The translations under genes and the position numbers were made by a program. This document shows positions 6,329 to 47,760 of a DNA stretch of 64,000 nt, piece after piece (within the stretch, counting starts at the first letter, position 1; each line of letters begins with the position of its first letter). Source of the DNA: an uncultured Lachnospiraceae bacterium (lineage in GTDB: Bacteria > Bacillota > Clostridia > Lachnospirales > Lachnospiraceae); contig CAMNSZ010000009.1 of assembly GCA_946557105.1 (NCBI GenBank), positions 1 to 64,000 on the forward strand, written 5' to 3'. The notes beneath the pieces were generated by a model. It was not told the origin of the DNA, ran no database searches, and saw nothing but the letters and a program-made list of their open reading frames with translations.

Positions 6329-7318
6329 ATGAAAATATTATTTTATGATACCAAAAGCTATGATCAAAACACCTTCAATAACGCCCTGCCGCAATTTCCC
6401 GGTTTGGAAATAGATTATATCAAATCCGACCTCGACCCCAGAACAGCCGCTCTCGCAGATGGCTTTGACGCCGTGTGCGCATTCGTAAACTCAGACGTAG
6501 GTACGAAAACCTTGGAAATCCTACACGGAAAAAACATAAAGCTGATACTGATGCGTTGCGCCGGCTTTAATAATGTAGATTTGGAAAAAGCACACCAATA
6601 TGGCATGCGCGTCATGCGCGTACCCGGTTACTCTCCGGAAGCCGTTGCGGAACATGCCATGGCTCTTGCCCTAGCCTGCAACCGCCGCCTATATAAGGCA
6701 TATAATAAGGTACGCGAAAATGATTTCAGCTTAAGCGGTCTTATGGGCTTTAATTTTCATACCAAAACGGCCGGTATCATAGGCACAGGTAAAATCGGCG
6801 CCGCAATGTGCCGTATCTGTCACGGGTTCGGAATGAAGGTCATCGCGTATGACGTATATCAAAACGAAGCGCTAAAGGCTTTTGTAGAATATGTGAGCCT
6901 AGAGCAGCTGTTGGAGCAAAGTGACTTAATCTCCCTTCATTGCCCGCTTATGGACTCCACCTACCACATTGTTCATCTGGACACCATTAAGCAGATGAAG
7001 GACGGCGTCATTCTCGTAAATACCTCCCGGGGCGCTTTGGTAAATACCGAAGACTTAATCGAGGGCATCCGCATGCATAAATTCGCCGGCGTGGGTCTCG
7101 ATGTGTATGAGGAGGAAACCGAAAATGTATTTGAGGATCGCTCCGACGAAATCCTTGAGCACTCTACCACCGCAAGGCTTCTCTCCTTCCCTAACGTGAT
7201 GATTACGTCTCATCAGGGATTTTTTACCAGAGAGGCGTTACAGGCAATCGCCGAAACCACCCTGCAAAACGCTACGGATTACCTTGCCGGTAAAGAGAGC
7301 CCCAACGACGTAAAGTAA
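6329..7318 (+). CDS. ldhA: D-lactate dehydrogenase (D-2-hydroxyacid dehydrogenase family)
   Basis: The enzyme reduces pyruvate to D-lactate with NADH in the cytoplasm. The 329 residues include the Rossmann motif GTGKIG near 150 and the family signature around NTSRGALVNTEDL. The catalytic residues appear as Arg in that signature, Glu in the DVYEEE region and His in TSHQGFFT. YEEETENVFEDRS is typical of fermentative D-LDH. The ATG at 6329 follows GGAGG by five bases; an earlier ATG at 6317 overlaps that site and is less likely. It is monocistronic and convergent with the MATE gene, with only four bases between the stops. Confidence 0.93.
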   Translation: MKILFYDTKSYDQNTFNNALPQFPGLEIDYIKSDLDPRTAALADGFDAVCAFVNSDVGTKTLEILHGKNIKLILMRCAGFNNVDLEKAHQYGMRVMRVPGYSPEAVAEHAMALALACNRRLYKAYNKVRENDFSLSGLMGFNFHTKTAGIIGTGKIGAAMCRICHGFGMKVIAYDVYQNEALKAFVEYVSLEQLLEQSDLISLHCPLMDSTYHIVHLDTIKQMKDGVILVNTSRGALVNTEDLIEGIRMHKFAGVGLDVYEEETENVFEDRSDEILEHSTTARLLSFPNVMITSHQGFFTREALQAIAETTLQNATDYLAGKESPNDVK

Positions 7319-7322
7319 ATCT

Positions 7323-8711
7323 TTATTTTTTCACAATATTCTGAATCCAGACGCCCTTTTTTACAAGCACGAAGCCGATAGCGCATTTTATCAAATCTAT
7401 CAGCTGGCAAAATAGATACAGCGGAATAATGTGCAGCCCGGTAAAACGACTGAGCACAAAGGCAAGAGGAATGCTGGCGCACCACATGAAGACGCTGTCA
7501 AACAGAAAAGTAACAATAGTCTTTCCTCCTGAACGCAGTGTAAAATAAGTAGCGTGCATAAAAGCAAAAATAGGCATACACGCCGCCGCAATGCGGATAA
7601 ACCATGTGGCAAGCCCTTTCACTGCATCCGTAGTATTATAGAGCATGGGGAACAAAGGCGCCAAAATAATAAGCACAAGGCCAATCCCCACACAGCTCAT
7701 TACGGAAAATGCAATCAGCTTAGTGTCCGTATCCTTTGCCTCCTCCATTTTACCGGCCCCCAAAAGCTGCCCTACCAAAATGGAGATAGCGCTTCCCATG
7801 GCAATAAACACAACATTAAACAGATTAGAAATGGTTGTGGAGATATTAAGCGCCGCCACTGCGTCCAGCCCCCGCACGGAATAACACTGCATCAGCGTTG
7901 CCATTCCTGCCGCCCAAAGAATTTCGTTTATCATAAGAGGCGTTCCCTTGATTACAATATTGCCGGCCAGCTGGGGCGGAATGCACGCCTTCCTGTAGGC
8001 GCCCACAATAAACGGCATGCGCTCTTTATGGGTATGGGTCCATATCACTACAACCGCCGCCTGCACATAGCGGGAAATAACCGTTGCAAGCGCCGCTCCC
8101 ACCACGCCAAGCTTAGGGAATCCCAGACTGCCGAATATCAAAAGATAGTTTAATATTAAATTGACAAATACCGCTATGATACCGGCCTTCATGGGCACCA
8201 TTGTCTCCCCGCATTCCCGCAGTGTACCGGTGTAAATCTGCTCTACTCCAAAGGGCAAAAGCCCGAACAGCATTACCAGAAGATATTCCTTCCCATAGCC
8301 TAACGCGGCGTATAACGCCTCCTCGTTGCCCTCCCCGTGAAGATACATAAGTATCAGATTTTCTCCGAAGAAAAGCAAAATCAAAATGCCTATAAGTACA
8401 ATTGCCGCACATATATACAGCTTGAAGCGAAAGGTATGACGGACTCCCTTGTGATCCTTGCAGCCGTAATATTGCGCCCCAAAAATACCTGCGCCGGAAA
8501 TCGCCCCGAATATAGCCAGATTAAATACCAAAAGAAGCTGATTGACAATGGCGATGCCGGACATTTGCTCCGTTCCCACGCGCCCCACCATAATATTGTC
8601 AAGCAGACCCACAAAATTTGTGATACCGTTTTGCACCATAATTGGCACTGCCACCGACAGCGCCAGCCTATAAAACGCCCTGTCGCCGATTAACTTCTTC
8701 CTTATACTCAT
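7323..8711 (-). CDS. MATE-family multidrug efflux transporter
   Basis: A 462-residue polytopic protein with about 12 hydrophobic segments and the family's repeated features (VPIMVQNGITNFVGLLDNIM near the start, NQLLLVFNLAIFG, and a mirrored second half from residue ~240). MATE proteins export cationic drugs or metabolites using Na+ or H+. I start at the ATG at 8711, preceded by GGAGAGG. A GTG at 8750 overlaps the stop of the upstream radical SAM gene and would also have a usable site, so translational coupling is possible. Substrate cannot be inferred. Confidence 0.92.
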   Translation of the reverse strand: MSIRKKLIGDRAFYRLALSVAVPIMVQNGITNFVGLLDNIMVGRVGTEQMSGIAIVNQLLLVFNLAIFGAISGAGIFGAQYYGCKDHKGVRHTFRFKLYICAAIVLIGILILLFFGENLILMYLHGEGNEEALYAALGYGKEYLLVMLFGLLPFGVEQIYTGTLRECGETMVPMKAGIIAVFVNLILNYLLIFGSLGFPKLGVVGAALATVISRYVQAAVVVIWTHTHKERMPFIVGAYRKACIPPQLAGNIVIKGTPLMINEILWAAGMATLMQCYSVRGLDAVAALNISTTISNLFNVVFIAMGSAISILVGQLLGAGKMEEAKDTDTKLIAFSVMSCVGIGLVLIILAPLFPMLYNTTDAVKGLATWFIRIAAACMPIFAFMHATYFTLRSGGKTIVTFLFDSVFMWCASIPLAFVLSRFTGLHIIPLYLFCQLIDLIKCAIGFVLVKKGVWIQNIVKK

Positions 8712-8746
8712 AATCCTCTCCATTCCTGTATAATCCACAGATCCAA

Positions 8747-9442
8747 TCACTCCACTCCGCGAAGTCTGACTGTATCAATATATTGCCCGGCTAAAGCAGC
8801 CGCCCGCTTCATTTCCTCTGCGGAAAAAGCCCCAAAGCCTTGTACCAGCACGTTATCGCTCTCCCGAAATCCCTGCAAAAAATATGCCCTGCTGCCTTCA
8901 AGCCACTTCCCGATACGCTCAAATTCTTCTATGTTATGTATCCCCTTTACCACGGTAGTACGAAATTCGTACGAAATCTTACAGCATTTTAGCATGGCAA
9001 TGCTCTCCTCAATCCGGGATAAATCAATATCCCGAACGCCTGCCGCCGCGCCGTAATTTTCTCTGGAAGCCTTCACATCCATTGCCACATAATCCAAAAG
9101 CTCCTCCTCGAGCAGCTCCCACAGCGCCCCCGGATTAAAGCCGTTGGTATCCAGCTTTACCGGATAACCCAGAGCCTTTATCTCACGGATAAATTCCGCT
9201 AAATCCTTTTCCAGAGTAGGCTCTCCGCCGGTAATGCAGACTCCCTCCAAAATTCCCTGCCTTTTCTCAAGGTATCCTAAAACCTCGCTTTTAAGCATTA
9301 CCGGCTGACGCTCCGGATTCAATACCAGATTTTTATTGTGGCAGAAGGGACAACGCAAATTGCAGCCCCCTGTAAACACAGTGGCTGCCACATGCTCCGG
9401 ATAATCCAATAAAGTTGTTTTGTTAAAGCCATGTATCCGCAT
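8747..9442 (-). CDS. nrdG: Anaerobic ribonucleotide reductase activating protein (NrdG-type radical SAM)
   Basis: A 231-residue radical SAM protein with the cluster motif CNLRCPFC near residue 28, a glycine-rich SAM site CITGGEPTLEKD and the start MRIHGFNKTTLLDYP typical of the second NrdG subfamily. Such activases put the glycyl radical on the class III reductase NrdD, so deoxynucleotides can be made without oxygen. NrdD is not in this window, so the partner is assumed to be elsewhere. The start has GAGGG just upstream. The stop meets the MATE frame, suggesting loose co-transcription without an obvious functional link. Confidence 0.88.
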   Translation of the reverse strand: MRIHGFNKTTLLDYPEHVAATVFTGGCNLRCPFCHNKNLVLNPERQPVMLKSEVLGYLEKRQGILEGVCITGGEPTLEKDLAEFIREIKALGYPVKLDTNGFNPGALWELLEEELLDYVAMDVKASRENYGAAAGVRDIDLSRIEESIAMLKCCKISYEFRTTVVKGIHNIEEFERIGKWLEGSRAYFLQGFRESDNVLVQGFGAFSAEEMKRAAALAGQYIDTVRLRGVE

Positions 9443-40361: not shown

Positions 40362-42670
40362 TCAATTACCTAATTTATTTTCATCCAGATACAGCTGTAC
40401 TCTTCTGTCTATCAGCCGCGTCACCTCCAGCGCATTCTTCTGCCCTGACCAGAATGCGCCTGCCTCCTCCGCTACTATATCGTAGATCGGGCAGTAGTCC
40501 TTATAGGGAACGGCGCTCCTAAGCAATTCCTTGTATTCCTCCGTATATGTGGTGCCGTCCTCCTTTTGTCTCAATACTATCCAGTCGTCGCTTCCGTCCA
40601 GCCAATAATACTTCTTCTCCGGCTCATTATACCACACCTGAGTATCTACTATGCCGTCTATGACGCTGATATCGTTGTGAAGCTTTTTCTGGCAGTCCAT
40701 GCTTAGAAAATATCCTATCAGTCCTTCGATTACCTCCATTTTATCCTCGTCCACGTCTGCATTGACTGCCAAGAGTCCCTCCGCTATCAGATAAGTGCCC
40801 CTGCGGTCCTCGGCAGGCAGTCCTACGGGGTAGCAGTCGCTTCCGAGCTCACTGCTCAGGTAAAAAAAACCTTCCGCCCCCGCCATTCCCCGGCTTAATG
40901 CCAAAACAGATTTTGTAGTTATCCCGTATTTCTCATAGGTTTCCTTTCCCGCCCAGCGCTCGTCATAATCTCTCACCACCTCAAGGAGCCTCATAAAATC
41001 CTTTTCCTCAAAACGGCTGATGCCTTCCTCCCAGTCGACAAATTTTGATTTCCTTTGGGCAAGGTCATACTCCACCAAAAGGGGAAGCACATCATAATAG
41101 TCAATATTGCTGCCGAATCCCCTTGTGAAGATACCGCAGATATTCTGGCGGCTATCCGCCAGCTCCAGCACATCGTCAAGCGTCCAGCCCTCTTCATTTC
41201 AAATCTCCCTGTGAGTAAACATTGTCTTCACATCCACACTGATGGGAATACCGTAGAGCTTTCCTCCCATCTCCCCGTACTCAAGCACACCGGGAAGCAA
41301 CGTGTCCTTTACGGAATCCGGTATCAGTTCCCCCATTTCCGCAAGGGCCCCGTTCTCCCAAAGCTTCCGTAAATCCTTATAGGGTATGTACAGCAGGTCG
41401 GGGCCTTTTCCGTTTAACACCTCCACCAGCATCCGTTCCTTGGAATTATCCGTCTGTGAGGTTTTTTCCACCGTCACCGGACACTGGGGATTCTTTCTGC
41501 TAAAGGTGGCAATAGAAGCCTCGACAAAATTAGCCCCAGATTCCTGTGTCATAATCCCCACCCTCACCGGGTTCCTTAATTTGGGTTCTTCATAGGAAAG
41601 GCGGCTCACCCAGTCCTCCGTTTTTGATATATACCGCAAATATGCGTTGCCGCTGCTGTTCCAGAACAGCATGGTACTTAACTGTTCCCCGATGCCGTTT
41701 GCCTTTAAGTCAAATACCCTTTCCCTTTTCCCGGTTCCCACATTCCATCTCACGACAGACCCTTTCCATGCATAATAAAGCTCGCTGCCCTGCATGCCGT
41801 ACCATTTATCTATGATCTCGTTTTCCGTTCTGCCCAGCTCGACTATCTCGTTCCTCTCGTTTTTCCACACTAACCTTGTTCCGTTTACGTCGGAATCCTT
41901 TATAGGGAAAAACATTCTTCCGGCGGCGTCGCGCACGGGTTCATATATCATATCTCGTGAAGAATCCTGACAGATATATGCAGTCACGGCATTCCCCTCG
42001 TCGTCCACAATGTAGAGGCCGTCTTGATTTTCCTCCATTACAGTGACATAGAAATATCCTGCCCCGTCCCTGTACAGGCCTTTGAATCCCCCCCAAACCC
42101 AAGCTCCTTAAGCCCCGGCAGGATATCAACCTGCGATTTGAGCCTGCCCTTTTTGTCCGTCGTCACCACATAACACTGCGTGGGAGCGTCAGCCTGCCAT
42201 GCCGCTTCCCCGTCGCACGCGCCCGCCAAAAAATAATACTCGCCGCCAATGGCGTCAAAGCCCCAGATTTCATTGCCCTCAATGCCCCAATCTTTCGGGT
42301 GGAGCTTAACGCTGTCCGCCTCTCCTTCGCCCATGGGGATTGTCTCCAGATAATATACGGTTCTTTCGTCAAGATAATACCTACACAGGTCCAGATAATC
42401 GTCGCCATCTGCCCTGACCACATGCAGTCTTGGTAAGTTATTATCGTCGGGATGTTCATGCGACACCTCCCGGTAATCCAACACATATAACTGCTCTCCA
42501 TCTCCCAGCGACTCCCTACGAAATCCCTGCTGCCAGTCCGCAAGAGTATGCTCCGATACAGCCCCTTCCCTGACAGCATCCTCTGTCGTGCCGCAGCCCG
42601 CTGCGGCGGCTCCCCACAGCAGACATACAACAAAAAAAATATATATTTTCTTTTTTGTTCCGTTCCGCAT
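40362..42670 (-). pseudogene. Broken paralogue of the 760-residue binding-protein-like lipoprotein
   Basis: Three frames in series match the intact neighbour from end to end. Piece 1 (42670-42038) has lipobox AAAGC and the N-terminal half. The frame is then lost in a run of seven C (42088-42094, G on the coding strand): one more G restores alignment (FKGLYRDGAGYFYV). Piece 2 runs to an in-frame TGA at 41199-41201, where the neighbour has Trp. Piece 3 (from before 41171) completes the C-terminus to VQLYLDENK. The gene therefore has one frameshift and one nonsense codon, with the rest well preserved, which suggests recent inactivation or, for the G run, a sequencing slip. Confidence 0.88.
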
Positions 42671-42713: not shown

Positions 42714-44996
42714 CTATTTATTTTCATCCAGATACAGCTGTACTCTTCTGTCTATCAGCCGCGTCACCTCCGTCGCATCCTTCTGCCCCGACCAAAATGC
42801 GCCTGCTTCCTCCGCTACTATATCGTAGATCGGACAGTAGTCCTTATAGGGAACGGCGCTCCTAAGCAATTCTCTAAACTCCCCGGTATAGGGCGTACCG
42901 TCTTTTTTCGCTGACAGAAGCTTCTTAACGTCGGTTCCATCATCCCAATAATATTGGTTATGTATTTCACTGTATTTTATATGCGTATCTATCAGCCCGT
43001 CTATAACACTGATATCATCCCAGATTTTCTGCTGACACTCCATGCCCAAAAAGTACTCTATCAGCTTCCCAATCGTCTTAAGCTTCTCCTCCTCCACGTT
43101 GACATTTACCACGAACAGCCCCTCCGCAATCAGATAATTACCCCTGTGATCCTCCGCCGGCAGCCCTACGGCATAACAATCCTCCCCAAGCTTACTGCTT
43201 AAAATCGAAAAGATCCCTATACCGATTTCGCTGCTATCCATTCCCAAAGCAGATTGCATGGCTATCCCATAGTCCTCATCGGCTTCTTTTCCTGTCCGTT
43301 GCTCTTCATAATTTTTTACCGTTTCAAGTACCCTCATGAAATTCTTTTCCTCAAAATGGCTGGTTCTCTTCTCCCAATCAATAAACTTAGATTTCTCCTG
43401 CGCAATGTCAGGCTCCACCAGAAGGCGCAACGTGTCATATTCATTTAAGCCGTAGCCGGTCTGCGCTGTAAAGATGCCATGGATGGCAGGATTGTTCTCC
43501 GCCGCCTCCAATGCCTCATCAAGGGTCCATCCCTTCCCGTTCCATATATTTCTGTTGGTAAACATCGTCTGCATTTGGACGCAGACGGGGATCCCATACA
43601 GACCGTCCTCAATCTCCCCGTATTCAATTACTCCCGGCAACAGCGTAGCTTTTACGGCTTCCGGCAAAAGCCCTTCTATTTCTCTGAGGGCGCCATTATT
43701 GTTCAACCGCAGTAAATCCCTGTAAGAAACATACAGCATATCAGGACCTTTTCCCGTAATCACATCAACCAGCATCCGCTCCTTTGAATTGTCCGTTGGC
43801 ACGGTATCCTCCACCTTCAGCGGGCACTGGGGATTCTCCCTTTTATAGGTAGCAAGCTCGCTCTTAATAAAATTGGCTCCCCTTCCCCATGTGGTTATCC
43901 CAATATCAATTGAATCCTTACTTTCGGGCTCCTCATAGGACATCCTGCTCACCCAGTCTTCACTTTTCGATATATACCTCAGGTAAAGATTCCCACTGTC
44001 ATCCCATAGCAGAGTGGTACAAGACCGCTCTGCTATGCCGTTTTCTTCTAAGTCAAATACCTCTTCCCGTTTTCCGGTAATTACGTCCCACCTGACTATC
44101 ATATTGAGCTCCACGTAATATAATTTGCTTTCCCTCATACAATACCAGGTATCTATGCCGGCATTTTCCATCCTGCACAGCTCGGCAATCTCATTCTTCC
44201 CGTTTTTCCACAGAAGTCTTGTTGCCTGCTCCGATGAATCCTTCACAGGGAAAAAAATTCTGCCACTGTCGTCTTTCACCGGGCTGAATATGATATCCGC
44301 GAAAGCCACCCGGCAAATATAGGAAGCAACGGCCGTACCTTTACCATCGGTAACATACAGACCTCCCTTTCCCTCGTCCATTGTAGTAACATAAATATAT
44401 CCGTCACCATCCACACAAAAGCTCAACAGTATCCCACCATACCCCAGCTCCTTAAGGCCCGGCAGAATATCCGCCTGCATCTGCAGGCGTCCTTTACCGT
44501 CTGTTTCCACAATCCGAAGCTGCTCCGGCACGTCGTCCTCTTTTGGTTCGCTCTCATCATATATTGCAACCAGAAAATAATAATTGCCTCCCATAACGTC
44601 AAATCCCCAGATTTCGTTGCTCTCGATGCCCCAGCTCTTTGGATGGATATTGATATAGGACGTCTCTCCCCCTCCCATAGGAATGGTTTCCAGATAGTAT
44701 TCAGTTCTTTCATCAAGATAGTATCTGGTAAAATCCACATAATCATTACCCAGCGTCCTGACAACATGCAGCCTTGGCAAATTATTTTCCTTAGGATGTT
44801 CATGATTTAGCTTCCGATAGTCTAACGCATACATCCTGTCGTTTCCGTCCTTTTTTAAATTCCCCTTATGGAAGCCCTGTTCCCAATCTGCATGGACGCG
44901 CTGCGCCGCCGCGTCCTCTTGCCTTGTGCCACAGCTCGTTATTGCCGCTATACATATAATGCATACTGCAAATAATATGTACAGATTTCTTCTCAT
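42714..44996 (-). CDS. Large lipoprotein with solute-binding-protein-like C-terminal half
   Basis: A 760-residue exported lipoprotein (lipobox ITSCG). The first ~330 residues look like a beta-rich, possibly propeller-type region with repeated phrases (GDGYIYVTT, KGGLYVTDGKGT, SGNLYLRYISK). From about 350 on the features of family-1 binding proteins appear (SELATYKRENPQCPL; MLVDVITGKGPDMLYVSYRDL; LYGIPVCVQMQTMFT; VVNVNVEEEKLKTIG). No permease or ATPase adjoins, so it may sense or capture a ligand rather than feed an importer. The ATG at 44996 is seven bases after GGAGG. It is the intact member of a tandem pair; the ligand is unknown. Confidence 0.8.
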   Translation of the reverse strand: MRRNLYILFAVCIICIAAITSCGTRQEDAAAQRVHADWEQGFHKGNLKKDGNDRMYALDYRKLNHEHPKENNLPRLHVVRTLGNDYVDFTRYYLDERTEYYLETIPMGGGETSYINIHPKSWGIESNEIWGFDVMGGNYYFLVAIYDESEPKEDDVPEQLRIVETDGKGRLQMQADILPGLKELGYGGILLSFCVDGDGYIYVTTMDEGKGGLYVTDGKGTAVASYICRVAFADIIFSPVKDDSGRIFFPVKDSSEQATRLLWKNGKNEIAELCRMENAGIDTWYCMRESKLYYVELNMIVRWDVITGKREEVFDLEENGIAERSCTTLLWDDSGNLYLRYISKSEDWVSRMSYEEPESKDSIDIGITTWGRGANFIKSELATYKRENPQCPLKVEDTVPTDNSKERMLVDVITGKGPDMLYVSYRDLLRLNNNGALREIEGLLPEAVKATLLPGVIEYGEIEDGLYGIPVCVQMQTMFTNRNIWNGKGWTLDEALEAAENNPAIHGIFTAQTGYGLNEYDTLRLLVEPDIAQEKSKFIDWEKRTSHFEEKNFMRVLETVKNYEEQRTGKEADEDYGIAMQSALGMDSSEIGIGIFSILSSKLGEDCYAVGLPAEDHRGNYLIAEGLFVVNVNVEEEKLKTIGKLIEYFLGMECQQKIWDDISVIDGLIDTHIKYSEIHNQYYWDDGTDVKKLLSAKKDGTPYTGEFRELLRSAVPYKDYCPIYDIVAEEAGAFWSGQKDATEVTRLIDRRVQLYLDENK

Positions 44997-45134
44997 AATC
45001 AATCCTCCAAGCCGAGAGCGCCTTATGGCGCAGCAGCTTTCAAATTCTGTTCCGCAATCAAATATCCCGCAACGACTAATAGGGTAAAAACCTTACTGTG
45101 TGAAGTTTGTCTTATTGACTATATTTTAGACCAC

Positions 45135-45446
45135 CTATACCCTTTTGTCATAGTTTGCGTCACTACAGCTTGAATGCCGCCCATGCTCCGTAAATATTTC
45201 CCATTTCTTTTTCCCACATTCCTTACATTGCTCAAACTCACTTGATACCCAGCAATTTACCAGACAGTGTCCTCCGTCCACATTTGAACTATGGGTATAT
45301 GACCATGAATTAACATTGGGATTTCCCGAAATTACCCATGTGTGCACATGGTTTTCCGCCGCAGCCGCATGCACAGGCATACTGCCGGAAAGCATACATG
45401 CCAACAACAGACCCATAACCACTTTTTTTGTTGTTCTCTTAATCAT
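45135..45446 (-). CDS. Small secreted Cys/His-rich protein
   Basis: A 103-residue pre-protein: a basic start, a hydrophobic stretch and a likely signal peptidase site after PVHAAAA. The mature part is about 70 residues with five Cys and six His (HVHTWV, GGHCLVNC, CKECGKK, HGRHSSC), which could bind metal or form disulphides. Good AAGGAAGG site. I do not recognise the family. It is divergent from the XRE regulator gene, and its upstream region carries three GTTAAA motifs. Confidence 0.75.
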   Translation of the reverse strand: MIKRTTKKVVMGLLLACMLSGSMPVHAAAAENHVHTWVISGNPNVNSWSYTHSSNVDGGHCLVNCWVSSEFEQCKECGKKKWEIFTEHGRHSSCSDANYDKRV

Positions 45447-45485
45447 TATATTTCCTTCCTTTCTAATTATTAAATTATTAAAAAT

Positions 45486-45668
45486 GTTAAAGTGTTAAAA
45501 ATATTAAAACAATTAATGTTAAAGTAATTTGCAACATTGGCTTGCAAATATCATGTTAACGGTACCTGTCAACAAACCCACATTAACATTTATTGGCATT
45601 ATATTCAATGGAGAAAAAGTTAAACGGAGGTTAAATAGAAATTTAACCTTTTCTCTACTTGATTTAAC
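45486..45668. promoter_or_regulatory. Array of seven GTTAAA motifs between divergent genes
   Basis: GTTAAA occurs at 45486, 45494, 45518, 45619 and 45630, and its complement TTTAAC at 45642 and 45663. The two central ones form AGGTTAAAT(N4)ATTTAACCT (45628-45649), nested within GAGAAAA arms (45611-45617 and TTTTCTC at 45649-45655). Three motifs sit before the secreted-protein gene, four before the regulator, with the last overlapping its -35 box. This is the pattern of an operator for a dimeric repressor or activator. Confidence 0.6.
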
Positions 45669-45687
45669 TTTATTATCATAGTAAAAT
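45659..45687 (+). promoter_or_regulatory. Promoter of the membrane-anchored XRE gene
   Basis: TTGATT (45659-45664), a 17-base spacer, TAAAAT (45682-45687). The TTTAAC motif at 45663 overlaps the -35 box, which suggests autoregulation. Confidence 0.65.
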
Positions 45688-45722
45688 AATAGTAGATATT
45701 GTGTATGATTGGGGAAAATAAA

Positions 45723-46370
45723 ATGAATAAAGACGAATTTGGTAAACTGCTGAGGACATTGCGCGAACAGCAAAATTTAACGCAGGCTCATCTTGCCGAT
45801 GTGCTGCATGTAACCACGGCTTCCGTCAGCAAATGGGAAACCGGAAAAAATTTACCTAACAATGATATTCAGGACAGATTATGCCAATTTTTTCATCTCA
45901 CACATGATGAATTGCATAATCCTGAGACTACTCTTTCGCATTTAAGCCCGGCTGACACTTTCTCCACCGTCGTAAAGCCCGCGGTCGAATCCAAAGAAAA
46001 ACCGTTTGCAAAAAAGAAACAGCTGTTTGCTTACTCTACAGCTGTCCTTGTCGTATTGGTTGTTGTGGCAGGAATACTATTATTCATGCACAGGAAGAAT
46101 GATGCTAATAGTTTCTCCGTATATCATGTAAATTCACGATATTATTTTGATGAGTATTCGGGGGAAGAGATATATGAATACTCCTGCGTATACATAGGGG
46201 CTTTTACCCTTAAAAATGCTTCCGGATTCAGCGAACACGTCCGCCAAAAGTGGATGGAGGACAATAACGTGCGCAAAGACATAAATACCTTGAAGATTTC
46301 CTTTTACAAAAACGAGCAGGCTGCCCTCGGCTGGGCGCCCACTAACGAATGGGTTTACCTGTTCCGATGA
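45723..46370 (+). CDS. Membrane-anchored XRE-family regulator
   Basis: A 215-residue protein with an N-terminal helix-turn-helix (residues 5-60; LTQAHLADVLHVTTASVSKWETG), a linker, one hydrophobic helix at about 101-122 and an extracytoplasmic tail of ~90 residues (VNSRYYFDEYSGEEIYEY; KISFYKNEQAALGW). This single-pass layout suggests direct coupling of an outside signal to DNA binding. I do not recognise the tail. The ATG at 45723 follows GGGG at seven bases. It is followed after 17 bases by another small secreted protein, and flanked upstream by a divergent one. Confidence 0.8.
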   Translation: MNKDEFGKLLRTLREQQNLTQAHLADVLHVTTASVSKWETGKNLPNNDIQDRLCQFFHLTHDELHNPETTLSHLSPADTFSTVVKPAVESKEKPFAKKKQLFAYSTAVLVVLVVVAGILLFMHRKNDANSFSVYHVNSRYYFDEYSGEEIYEYSCVYIGAFTLKNASGFSEHVRQKWMEDNNVRKDINTLKISFYKNEQAALGWAPTNEWVYLFR

Positions 46371-46387
46371 CAAGAAAGGTATATGCC

Positions 46388-46675
46388 ATGAAAAAATTTA
46401 TTATATTTATTATATGTATAATACTTTGTTTATTTTTTCGCTTTACTCCGGTTCTGGCTGAACCGGCCGGCGGCGAGGAGCCTATAAGTCTCGTCGAAAC
46501 GGTTCCGTACATTTCGCGTGATTTTGTTTTTGACGGCAATACCTTTCCTCCCGAGCAAATCCACTGTCAAGAAACAATGAACGGCAAACAGCAGGAATAT
46601 GTGCTGACACGTTACTCCTTTATCGCCTGTGACAATAAAGTTATCGCCACTTACCGCATCGGCCAATTTCCGTGA
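46388..46675 (+). CDS. Small secreted protein downstream of the XRE regulator
   Basis: A 95-residue pre-protein with a clear signal peptide (KKFIIFIICIILCLFF, cleavage near VLAEPA). The mature part is ~70 residues, with two Cys, a DFVFDGNTFPPEQIHC stretch and the end TYRIGQFP. No family recognised. It starts 17 bases after the regulator stop behind AAAGG and is probably co-transcribed. Small size and export make it a candidate signal or inhibitor for the regulator's outside domain, which is inference. Confidence 0.7.
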   Translation: MKKFIIFIICIILCLFFRFTPVLAEPAGGEEPISLVETVPYISRDFVFDGNTFPPEQIHCQETMNGKQQEYVLTRYSFIACDNKVIATYRIGQFP

Positions 46676-46698: not shown

Positions 46699-47760
46699 TT
46701 ACATTTCCTTTACATCACGCTTTAACCGCTCCCATGCGTCAGGGTGCTCCGTATAGTACAGAGGGCATTTCTTTCCGCCGCAGTCATAATGCCGAAGTAT
46801 ATCCTCCGTATCAAGAGAATATGCTTCCGTAAGCCACTTCAGCAATGAAATCAAAGAATCATAGGTCTCCTGTGTAAAGGAGCCGTCCTCCTCCAAGTAG
46901 CAGCATTCTATGGAAATAGAGTCGTAATTTCTGGTCTGTACCGCATAGCCAATCTCATCCAACGGCAGACACTGAATAATCTCACCCTCATAGCCCACGA
47001 TAAAATGTGCGCTGACACTACGGTCATGCGTATCCTTGAGCTGTTCAAAATAACTGCGGTTCTGCGCCGCGCTTGTGCCGGGATTTGCCGTATAATGGAC
47101 AAATATACTTTCCACCGTCTCCAGACTGTTCCCCGGTCTTGAATATTCATTGGGGGTCAGAAGCTTCTCCTCCCACTGAGGGTGCCTGTCAAATACCTCC
47201 CTGCTGATTCCCTGTATTGTTTCCGCCTGCTGCCCGTACAAAACGCCCGGTTCCTGTATCTCTTTACCCGGCGCTATAGTACCGTCTATCTGCGGCTCGT
47301 CATACAGTCTTGTAAGAACCACAGAAAACAATGCGACTACACCCACACAACACATCAGCCCAAATAAAAAGCGAATCCTTTTGATCCGTCTGATACGCCT
47401 GTTTCTCATCTGCGCATTCTGCGTACGGCGTCGCGCCGAGGTCGTTTCATATGTAAATTGTTGACGTTTTACAGAAGGTCCGGCTCCTGTCGATTGCCTT
47501 TTACTTGTAGGACGTCGGGGATTTCCTGCAACCCGGTATCCTTCCTGAATCATTTGGTCATTTATAAACCTTCCCGAAGCCTGAACATAATCTATCGGCT
47601 GCTGCTTAACGCTCCTCGCCCTCTGCGATTGTCCGTAATTTTCCAAATAGGGATTTCGCCTGTTCTCTCTTGCCGCCAAATCCTGTCTTCTTCTCAAGTT
47701 CTCAATCTGTACCGCACTTCTTCTTTGCGGAATTCTTGCATTTGTACTCTGTTCCCTCAT
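46699..47760 (-). CDS. N-acetylmuramoyl-L-alanine amidase (Amidase_2), membrane-anchored
   Basis: A 353-residue type II membrane protein. A very basic cytoplasmic N-terminus of ~130 residues (many Arg/Gln) precedes a membrane helix at ~130-150 and an extracellular amidase domain that cuts the peptide from the glycan strand. Zinc ligands are visible as His in VHYTANPGT, His in LRHYDCGGKKCP and the adjacent Cys. The Arg-rich tail might bind nucleic acid or lipid. It is convergent with the small secreted-protein gene, 23 bases apart. Confidence 0.88.
   Translation of the reverse strand: MREQSTNARIPQRRSAVQIENLRRRQDLAARENRRNPYLENYGQSQRARSVKQQPIDYVQASGRFINDQMIQEGYRVAGNPRRPTSKRQSTGAGPSVKRQQFTYETTSARRRTQNAQMRNRRIRRIKRIRFLFGLMCCVGVVALFSVVLTRLYDEPQIDGTIAPGKEIQEPGVLYGQQAETIQGISREVFDRHPQWEEKLLTPNEYSRPGNSLETVESIFVHYTANPGTSAAQNRSYFEQLKDTHDRSVSAHFIVGYEGEIIQCLPLDEIGYAVQTRNYDSISIECCYLEEDGSFTQETYDSLISLLKWLTEAYSLDTEDILRHYDCGGKKCPLYYTEHPDAWERLKRDVKEM

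Follow-up and report, generated by a model that had tools for sequence, protein, structure and literature searches.

The question raised by the locus studied here is how a regulator that would bind DNA inside the cell might be told, across the membrane, what happens outside. The locus lies in a stretch of 64,000 nucleotides from an uncultured Lachnospiraceae bacterium (positions 1 to 64,000 of contig CAMNSZ010000009.1, assembly GCA_946557105.1), hereafter the window. It comprises a gene for an XRE-type regulator with a predicted membrane anchor (45723..46370, + strand), followed on the same strand by a gene for a small protein, here named S (46388..46675), the second gene of the regulator unit, and, facing the other way, a gene for a Cys/His-rich protein, here named C/H (45135..45446, − strand). 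An initial annotation had placed the three in a single sensing module, where one of the secreted proteins would be the ligand of the regulator or its blocker. The answer that we favour is a likely transmembrane sensor in two parts, made up of the regulator and S, S being a detached sensor or a ligand that acts on the outside tail of the regulator, with both divergent operons under control. Taken as a whole, this proposal seems to us evenly poised between right and wrong.

The regulator (215 amino acids, from an ATG behind GGGGA) falls into three parts. Its helix-turn-helix (HTH) domain, at residues 5-64, is of the XRE type, matching HTH_31 with 48.6 bits (cutoff 27, E 1e-12) and also HTH_3 with 40.5 bits (cutoff 23, E 3e-10). 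A hydrophobic helix with a Lys-rich inner flank, at residues 104-122, is predicted from hydropathy alone to cross the membrane. The remaining 91 residues (125-215, encoded at 46095..46367, + strand) make a predicted extracytoplasmic tail of no known family. All this agrees with the first reading of the sequence, which had seen one membrane helix and an outside tail of about 90 residues. The AlphaFold model of the tail is a confident and compact fold, with a predicted local distance difference test score (pLDDT) of 92.3 and a predicted template modelling score (pTM) of 0.81; it runs beta-beta-alpha-beta-alpha-beta, with strands at 9-20, 25-35, 66-72 and 87-91 and helices at 40-56 and 75-79. Each of 24 regulator frames, that of the window included, has the hydrophobic helix with basic residues on its inner side, and behind it a tail that is 86-111 residues long; the HTH is missing in L024, in L025 and in the second frame of L073.

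S begins 17 bases behind the regulator, as had been noted from the open reading frames (45723-46370 and 46388-46675), and encodes a small predicted-exported beta protein, of 95 amino acids from an ATG start. Its family shares the core vvYxGxvxPPxtfyyxexxnGxxYxGtLxLxxxxxxxktxAtYxGxLY, and the protein of the window aligns with the canonical one of locus L067 at 35% identity over 112 positions (BLASTP, E 9e-14). The model of the latter is a six-strand beta domain (pLDDT 87.1, pTM 0.69), preceded by a helix at residues 2-17, a predicted signal helix; by eye, the N-termini of S and C/H alike resemble signal peptides. Searched against solved structures, neither the tail nor the S model found a clear match, and none of the three families (tail, S, C/H) has a convincing match in Pfam, NCBIfam, PADLOC or PHROGs. 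When 15 S members were compared with Pfam, two chance-level matches appeared (E 0.025 and 0.053), neither of them to a penicillin-binding family. The S protein of L072 had no match among plasmid and phage records, and searches of the protein database returned few sequences (1, 2 and 2 matches, 58-100% identical). A type II toxin-antitoxin pair was considered for the regulator and S, and rejected: such a pair calls for a cytosolic toxin, and S has a predicted signal helix and matches no toxin family.

The first line of evidence is the constancy with which regulator and S stand side by side. In the 138 genomes of the window's genus, the tail profile found 21 full-length matches in 13 genomes, once 14 weaker rows had been dropped. 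S is the next gene at 14 of these 21 loci, and at one more the regulator is the first of a tandem pair that precedes S, which brings the count to 15/21. Seen from the other side, the association holds as well. The S profile gave 26 rows in the genus, of which 16 were strong (E 6e-23 or better); the ten dropped were a partial S adjoining a regulator (G491) and nine weak ones, including a remnant in G476. All 16 strong S genes lie directly behind a frame for a tail-bearing membrane regulator, at a distance of 0-45 bases. Damage is seen in two of the 16 frames: the second one of L073 has an in-frame stop in the HTH, and that of L024 has lost the HTH. In L073 (1-19901) the whole module is present twice, each copy followed by a gene that looks, by eye, like one for threonine synthase, which makes it a segmental duplication; at L024 (2646-4931, + strand) a gene resembling, again by eye, that of a serine recombinase stands directly before the HTH-less frame, a mobile element having probably inserted into the regulator gene.

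The co-occurrence of the genes in Lachnospiraceae genomes, which had been proposed as a check, thus extends to two genera as far as the regulator–S pair is concerned. The tallies in the wider family and order samples (5/397, 11/397 and 21/325 genomes, see below), for which at most 10, 11 and 14 candidates per genome were scored, should be read as minimum values, and some of the weak rows behind them are chance matches. In the family sample the tail profile reached at least 5 of 397 genomes, its only full-length match being the window's own, and this scarcity marks the system as accessory. The S profile reached at least 11 of the 397, with strong rows, besides the window's, in G210 (one) and G246 (two). 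The genus of G246 (18 genomes) has S in five genomes, at six loci. Regulator and S are adjacent at five of these (L181, L190, L191, L192 and L193, with S first in L193) and two genes apart at the sixth, L182. The tails of that genus are recognized weakly by single-profile search (3.5 to 18 bits) and prove related to the window's when profile is set against profile (hhalign 93%, E 3.5e-7, 72 columns).

Around this pair, the neighbours vary. They may be C/H and a lipoprotein, a lipoprotein alone, an ABC importer (L068), or, at L023 and L181, another small exported protein with ABC exporter genes, the transporter and protease names at these context loci being given mostly by eye. At L190, regulator, S, C/H and lipoprotein are four consecutive genes on one strand (C/H with 34 bits, the lipoprotein with 141 bits; scores and E-values for this locus, and for the similarity searches for M56 and BlaI proteins and the placing of the S core described below, were computed on small sets of our own), an arrangement that speaks for the four genes as a single system. 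With the pair constant while its neighbours change, the regulator and S look like a signalling core with exchangeable outputs.

The second line of evidence comes from proteins in which the S domain is not free. Applied to 325 genomes of the order, a wider S profile found matches in at least 21, many of them inside frames of 370-460 residues. These long frames encode membrane proteases of the M56 (BlaR1) type: the six tested match Pfam Peptidase_M56 with E 1e-28 to 7e-39. Similarity to one member brought the number of M56 proteins fused to S to 14, and a gene for a BlaI-type repressor adjoins 12 of them (one identified by Pfam, the others by similarity to that one). The S core of every one of the 14 comes after the final predicted membrane helix, some 100 residues beyond the HExxH motif; in six the match extends into that helix. 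S aligns with eight of these M56 C-termini (hhalign 96.9%, E 1.9e-10, 50 columns). In the family of G770 (58 genomes), S matches occur in 11 genomes, and M56 proteins account for 12 of the 14. One of the 14, at L212 (448-1830, + strand), is doubtful, since its S match overlaps a Cys/His-rich end. That end had suggested by eye that C/H, too, might be the sensor end of an M56 protein, an idea left unsupported by the C/H profile, which gives it 4 bits. In BlaR1, according to the extract of PMC7593790 available, the outside sensor has the same C-terminal position. The S core thus holds the sensor position of BlaR1-like M56 proteins, which makes S an input-side domain.

Further S genes occur in signalling loci of other kinds. 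At L198 a free S follows an XRE protein with, by eye, two membrane helices. At L197 (138-1881, − strand) it stands directly before genes for an extracytoplasmic function (ECF) sigma factor and a membrane protein, possibly an anti-sigma factor. At L183 (5985-7087, − strand; 7227-9265, + strand) a distant S lies between agrB and the gene of a solute-binding-type lipoprotein in an Agr locus: the genes for AgrD (TIGR04223, E 1.7e-8), AgrB, S and the lipoprotein follow one another, and those for an AgrC-like kinase and a LytTR-like response regulator point the other way. S and the lipoprotein thus seem to belong to an operon for quorum sensing. The common thread of the neighbourhoods of S is transmembrane signalling of several kinds.

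What would the pair in the window control? Between the start codons of the regulator and C/H lies a control region of 276 base pairs (45447..45722), with 24% guanine plus cytosine. The initial annotation had all three genes face one AT-rich region; this holds for the regulator and C/H, while S, as second gene of a likely operon, does not face it. The region contains seven copies of a half-site, GTTAAA/TTTAAC (at 45486, 45494, 45518, 45619, 45630, 45642 and 45663), of which three lie towards C/H and four about the promoter of the regulator. The motif was chosen after viewing the sequence; when any hexamer holding G or C was counted, none of 1000 shuffles gave seven copies, the mean of maxima being 3.2. 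A perfect 9-base-pair inverted repeat, AGGTTAAAT-N4-ATTTAACCT (45628..45649), is a candidate operator; arms of 9 or more appear in about 3% of 200 shuffles. It ends nine bases before the −35 box of a candidate sigma-70-type promoter for the regulator–S unit (45659..45687, + strand; TTGATT, 17 base pairs, TAAAAT), proposed on consensus match alone. To judge from the DNA, the regulator would thus probably control its own unit and the divergent operon. The control region of L067 has an array of its own, six copies of ATTCGA (0 of 1000 shuffles), as expected if operators changed together with the HTH.

The mechanism that we propose would run as follows. The regulator would bind DNA inside the cell and cross the membrane once; its state would be set by the outside tail together with S, once exported, in the role of detached sensor subunit, ligand or blocker. 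Upon a change of state, the regulator would bind the half-site arrays and palindromes of the shared control region, thereby regulating its own regulator–S unit and the divergent operon of C/H and the lipoprotein gene behind it. With the divergent operon controlled, the output would likely be a surface lipoprotein of the solute-binding type and its exported Cys/His partner. Given the exchangeable neighbours and the M56 fusions, S would most likely serve the tail as its detached sensor or as its ligand.

Several observations weigh against this proposal. An intact S is absent at 6 of the 21 tail regulators (in G004 and G007, at one of two loci in G006 and in G462, and at both in G476, one of which retains the S remnant). 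Conversely, inspection by eye showed S but no tail regulator at L183, at L197 (where 3.4 kb only is at hand) and at L180 (at a contig end), and the membrane XRE protein of L198 does not match the tail profile. Tail and S hardly diverge in step: in a mirror-tree comparison of 19 pairs, r was 0.21 (reached by 2% of permutations), fell to 0.09 (20%) with the HTH held fixed, and was 0.00 within the genus (14 pairs), whereas the correlation of HTH and S stayed at 0.23 (3%) with the tail held fixed; distances near saturation give this comparison low power. The S of the window is itself unusual. It lacks the first predicted strand pair, its terminal YxGxLY is altered, and the other full S genes aligned in the genus have at least 112 amino acids; the missing strands and altered end suggest that it may be drifting. 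The short form recurs in database proteins, two of which (88% and 96% identical) have it too. As to control, half-site arrays stand out in two of seven divergent control regions only, palindromes at the 5% level or better occur in 6 of 17 upstream regions, and no operator conserved across all loci was found.

Much of this would be explained if S were an output only, a secreted effector co-transcribed with the regulator, whose tail would by itself respond to a different cue, the M56 sensors having borrowed an effector fold. The absence of tail–S co-divergence beyond that of the HTH, the tail regulators without intact S, and the presence of S in an Agr locus with a lipoprotein and before an ECF sigma factor are what one would then expect. 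This is the most serious rival, and we nevertheless regard it as unlikely: S accompanies the regulator across many neighbourhoods, whereas true outputs change, and it is at the sensor position that its core is found in 14 M56 proteins. That a tail might be found without either secreted gene in most genomes had been named in advance as what would undo the idea of a module; in fact, S adjoins a tail gene in 10 of the 13 tail-bearing genomes of the genus.

A role of the locus in self-protection or competition, S being a bacteriocin-like protein kept together with its membrane regulator, and the lipoprotein and C/H acting as decoys or immunity factors, would be in line with the extra exported protein and the ABC exporter genes of L023 and L181; the best model of the L181 ATPase is one of lantibiotic protection, below its cutoff. 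We think this quite improbable, as the members of the S and C/H families show no match to bacteriocins, toxins or defence proteins, the S domain forms part of M56 sensors, and exporter genes were noticed at L023 and L181 only, among the regulator loci read by eye with no dedicated search.

Of similarly small probability is a scheme in which regulated intramembrane proteolysis frees the regulator from its anchor, with S as bait or inhibitor of the first cut. The BlaR1-like proteins that carry S are proteases, and one-component regulators under proteolytic control are described in the portion of PMC7593790 available. No protease gene recurs by eye at the loci; only L182 has one (6682-7710, − strand), for an exported and, again by eye, trypsin-like protease, placed between the genes of the regulator and S.

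This leaves C/H, rightly described at the outset as a divergent exported Cys/His-rich protein: its frame (45446-45135, − strand) encodes 103 amino acids with 6 Cys and 7 His, and export is predicted. The initial annotation missed the lipoprotein gene behind it (42714..45002, − strand; likely start ATG 44996), which turned out to be its constant partner. In the 65 context loci examined, 51 C/H genes were counted. A gene for a solute-binding-type lipoprotein comes next, on the same strand and within 450 bases, in 48; of the other three, one has it 1,080 bases on and two have none that was found. A tail regulator lies within 800 bases of only 9/51, and the genome of the window itself holds a second C/H–lipoprotein pair with no tail regulator nearby (L065). 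For these reasons C/H and the lipoprotein are an independent unit, which the regulator–S pair joins at 8 of 21 tail loci: that of the window, four in G503, one in G467, one in G521 and one in G471. That C/H, and not S, would be the ligand or metal-loaded cue of the tail is very improbable, for although it is divergent from the regulator or downstream of it at those eight loci, and directly behind S in L190, it is missing next to the regulator at the other 13, and its steady companion is the lipoprotein. Of the earlier proposal that a secreted protein is ligand or blocker, then, the part that fits S finds support in the S domains at the BlaR1-like sensor position, and the part that made C/H one of a trio does not find it.

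C/H is likely to bind metal; a CxxC motif is present in 42 of the 51 genes. The best stray match, a weak one, is to Zn_ribbon_8, for one of 12 members (E 0.0011). The family can be abundant, with up to 11 matches at E 0.01 in the single genome G503; from the same search the weak rows, often no more than short stretches within frames that exceed or equal 500 residues, were left aside. The lipoprotein carries a C-terminal solute-binding-type domain. A relative at L026 matches SBP_bac_1 (E 1.9e-11), and that of the window matches the solute-binding fold weakly (PDB, E 0.004, residues 362-476; TIGR03851, E 4e-5, below its cutoff); its N-terminal half is, by eye, possibly propeller-like. No permease was noticed by eye among the neighbouring open reading frames of the window, and two permease-like genes were seen, likewise by eye, at L068, these being the only places checked. 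Beyond the lipoprotein gene, a tandem lipoprotein-like stretch (40362..42670, − strand), split over three frames (210, 279 and 269 amino acids), is either a decaying copy or the result of assembly errors. On the other side, convergent with S, a gene for an N-acetylmuramoyl-L-alanine amidase (46699-47760, − strand; Amidase_2, E 6e-23), which by eye is probably membrane-anchored, shows no sign of belonging to the module.

Known systems resemble this one in parts. The layout of HTH domain, membrane helix and outside domain is that of RodZ, likewise a single-pass membrane protein with a Cro/CI-type HTH; the window regulator differs from it in reaching only 12.1 bits (E 0.18) with HTH_25, whose cutoff is 24.6, and in showing no outside-domain match. 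ToxR and CadC also combine a cytoplasmic DNA-binding domain, one membrane helix and an outside domain, here predicted, and CadC is set in addition by a partner protein, LysP, according to the excerpt of PMC5936718 available; the same excerpt puts membrane-integrated one-component regulators at 3% of one-component systems. In the window, by contrast, the DNA-binding end is an XRE HTH (HTH_3/HTH_31) instead of an OmpR-type winged helix, the tail belongs to another family, and the gene alongside provides the partner, a small beta protein with predicted export. Only XRE models pass their Pfam cutoffs; winged helices of the MarR type stay below theirs, and no OmpR-type model figures in the list of 16 families that reaches up to E 1. 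Given this output domain, the system is not a member of the ToxR/CadC group.

With BlaR1/MecR1 and BlaI/MecI, the likeness lies in the S-family domains at the outside sensor position of M56 proteins beside BlaI-type repressors. In the window S is a separate gene, and the classical sensor, in the available part of PMC7593790, is a penicillin-binding domain, to which S has no match. Pfam finds no M56 domain in the regulator, S, C/H, the lipoprotein or the amidase, so this is not a BlaR1 system either. Agr (AgrBDCA) shares a context with a distant S gene at L183 only; the window has a membrane XRE regulator where Agr has a histidine kinase and a response regulator, and no AgrB or AgrD was noticed there, by inspection and with no profile search for either. 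In Listeria, a pair of XRE regulators adjoins a secreted metzincin and a TIMP-like lipoprotein; that pair, described in PMC8235301, is a switch of the CI/Cro kind, derived from a phage or a mobile element, and the word "transmembrane" is absent from the paper. Finally, among the matches listed from open-licence papers, there is no membrane XRE regulator with an exported partner, no C/H–lipoprotein pair and no S domain.

A broader view may be put forward, tentatively and with more doubt than trust: S would be a mix-and-match input domain of transmembrane signalling in Gram-positive bacteria, absent from the Pfam and NCBIfam catalogues, which some lineages built into BlaR1-like proteases and others use as a free exported subunit for membrane XRE regulators, perhaps also in ECF sigma factor and Agr loci. 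The pair in the window would then be a split receptor, in which a one-component transcription factor has a secreted sensor half.

If our proposal is correct, an XRE DNA-binding end joined to a separately encoded exported partner would be a new way to build a receptor, and the presence of the S domain in BlaR1-like proteases, as their likely sensor end, connects two architectures of signalling. M56–BlaI pairs that have no known cue would gain in S a testable input domain. Three uncharacterised families (the tail, S and C/H) would become connected to a C/H–lipoprotein pair that recurs through the genus. And, were the split receptor real, the S of one cell could also instruct its neighbours.

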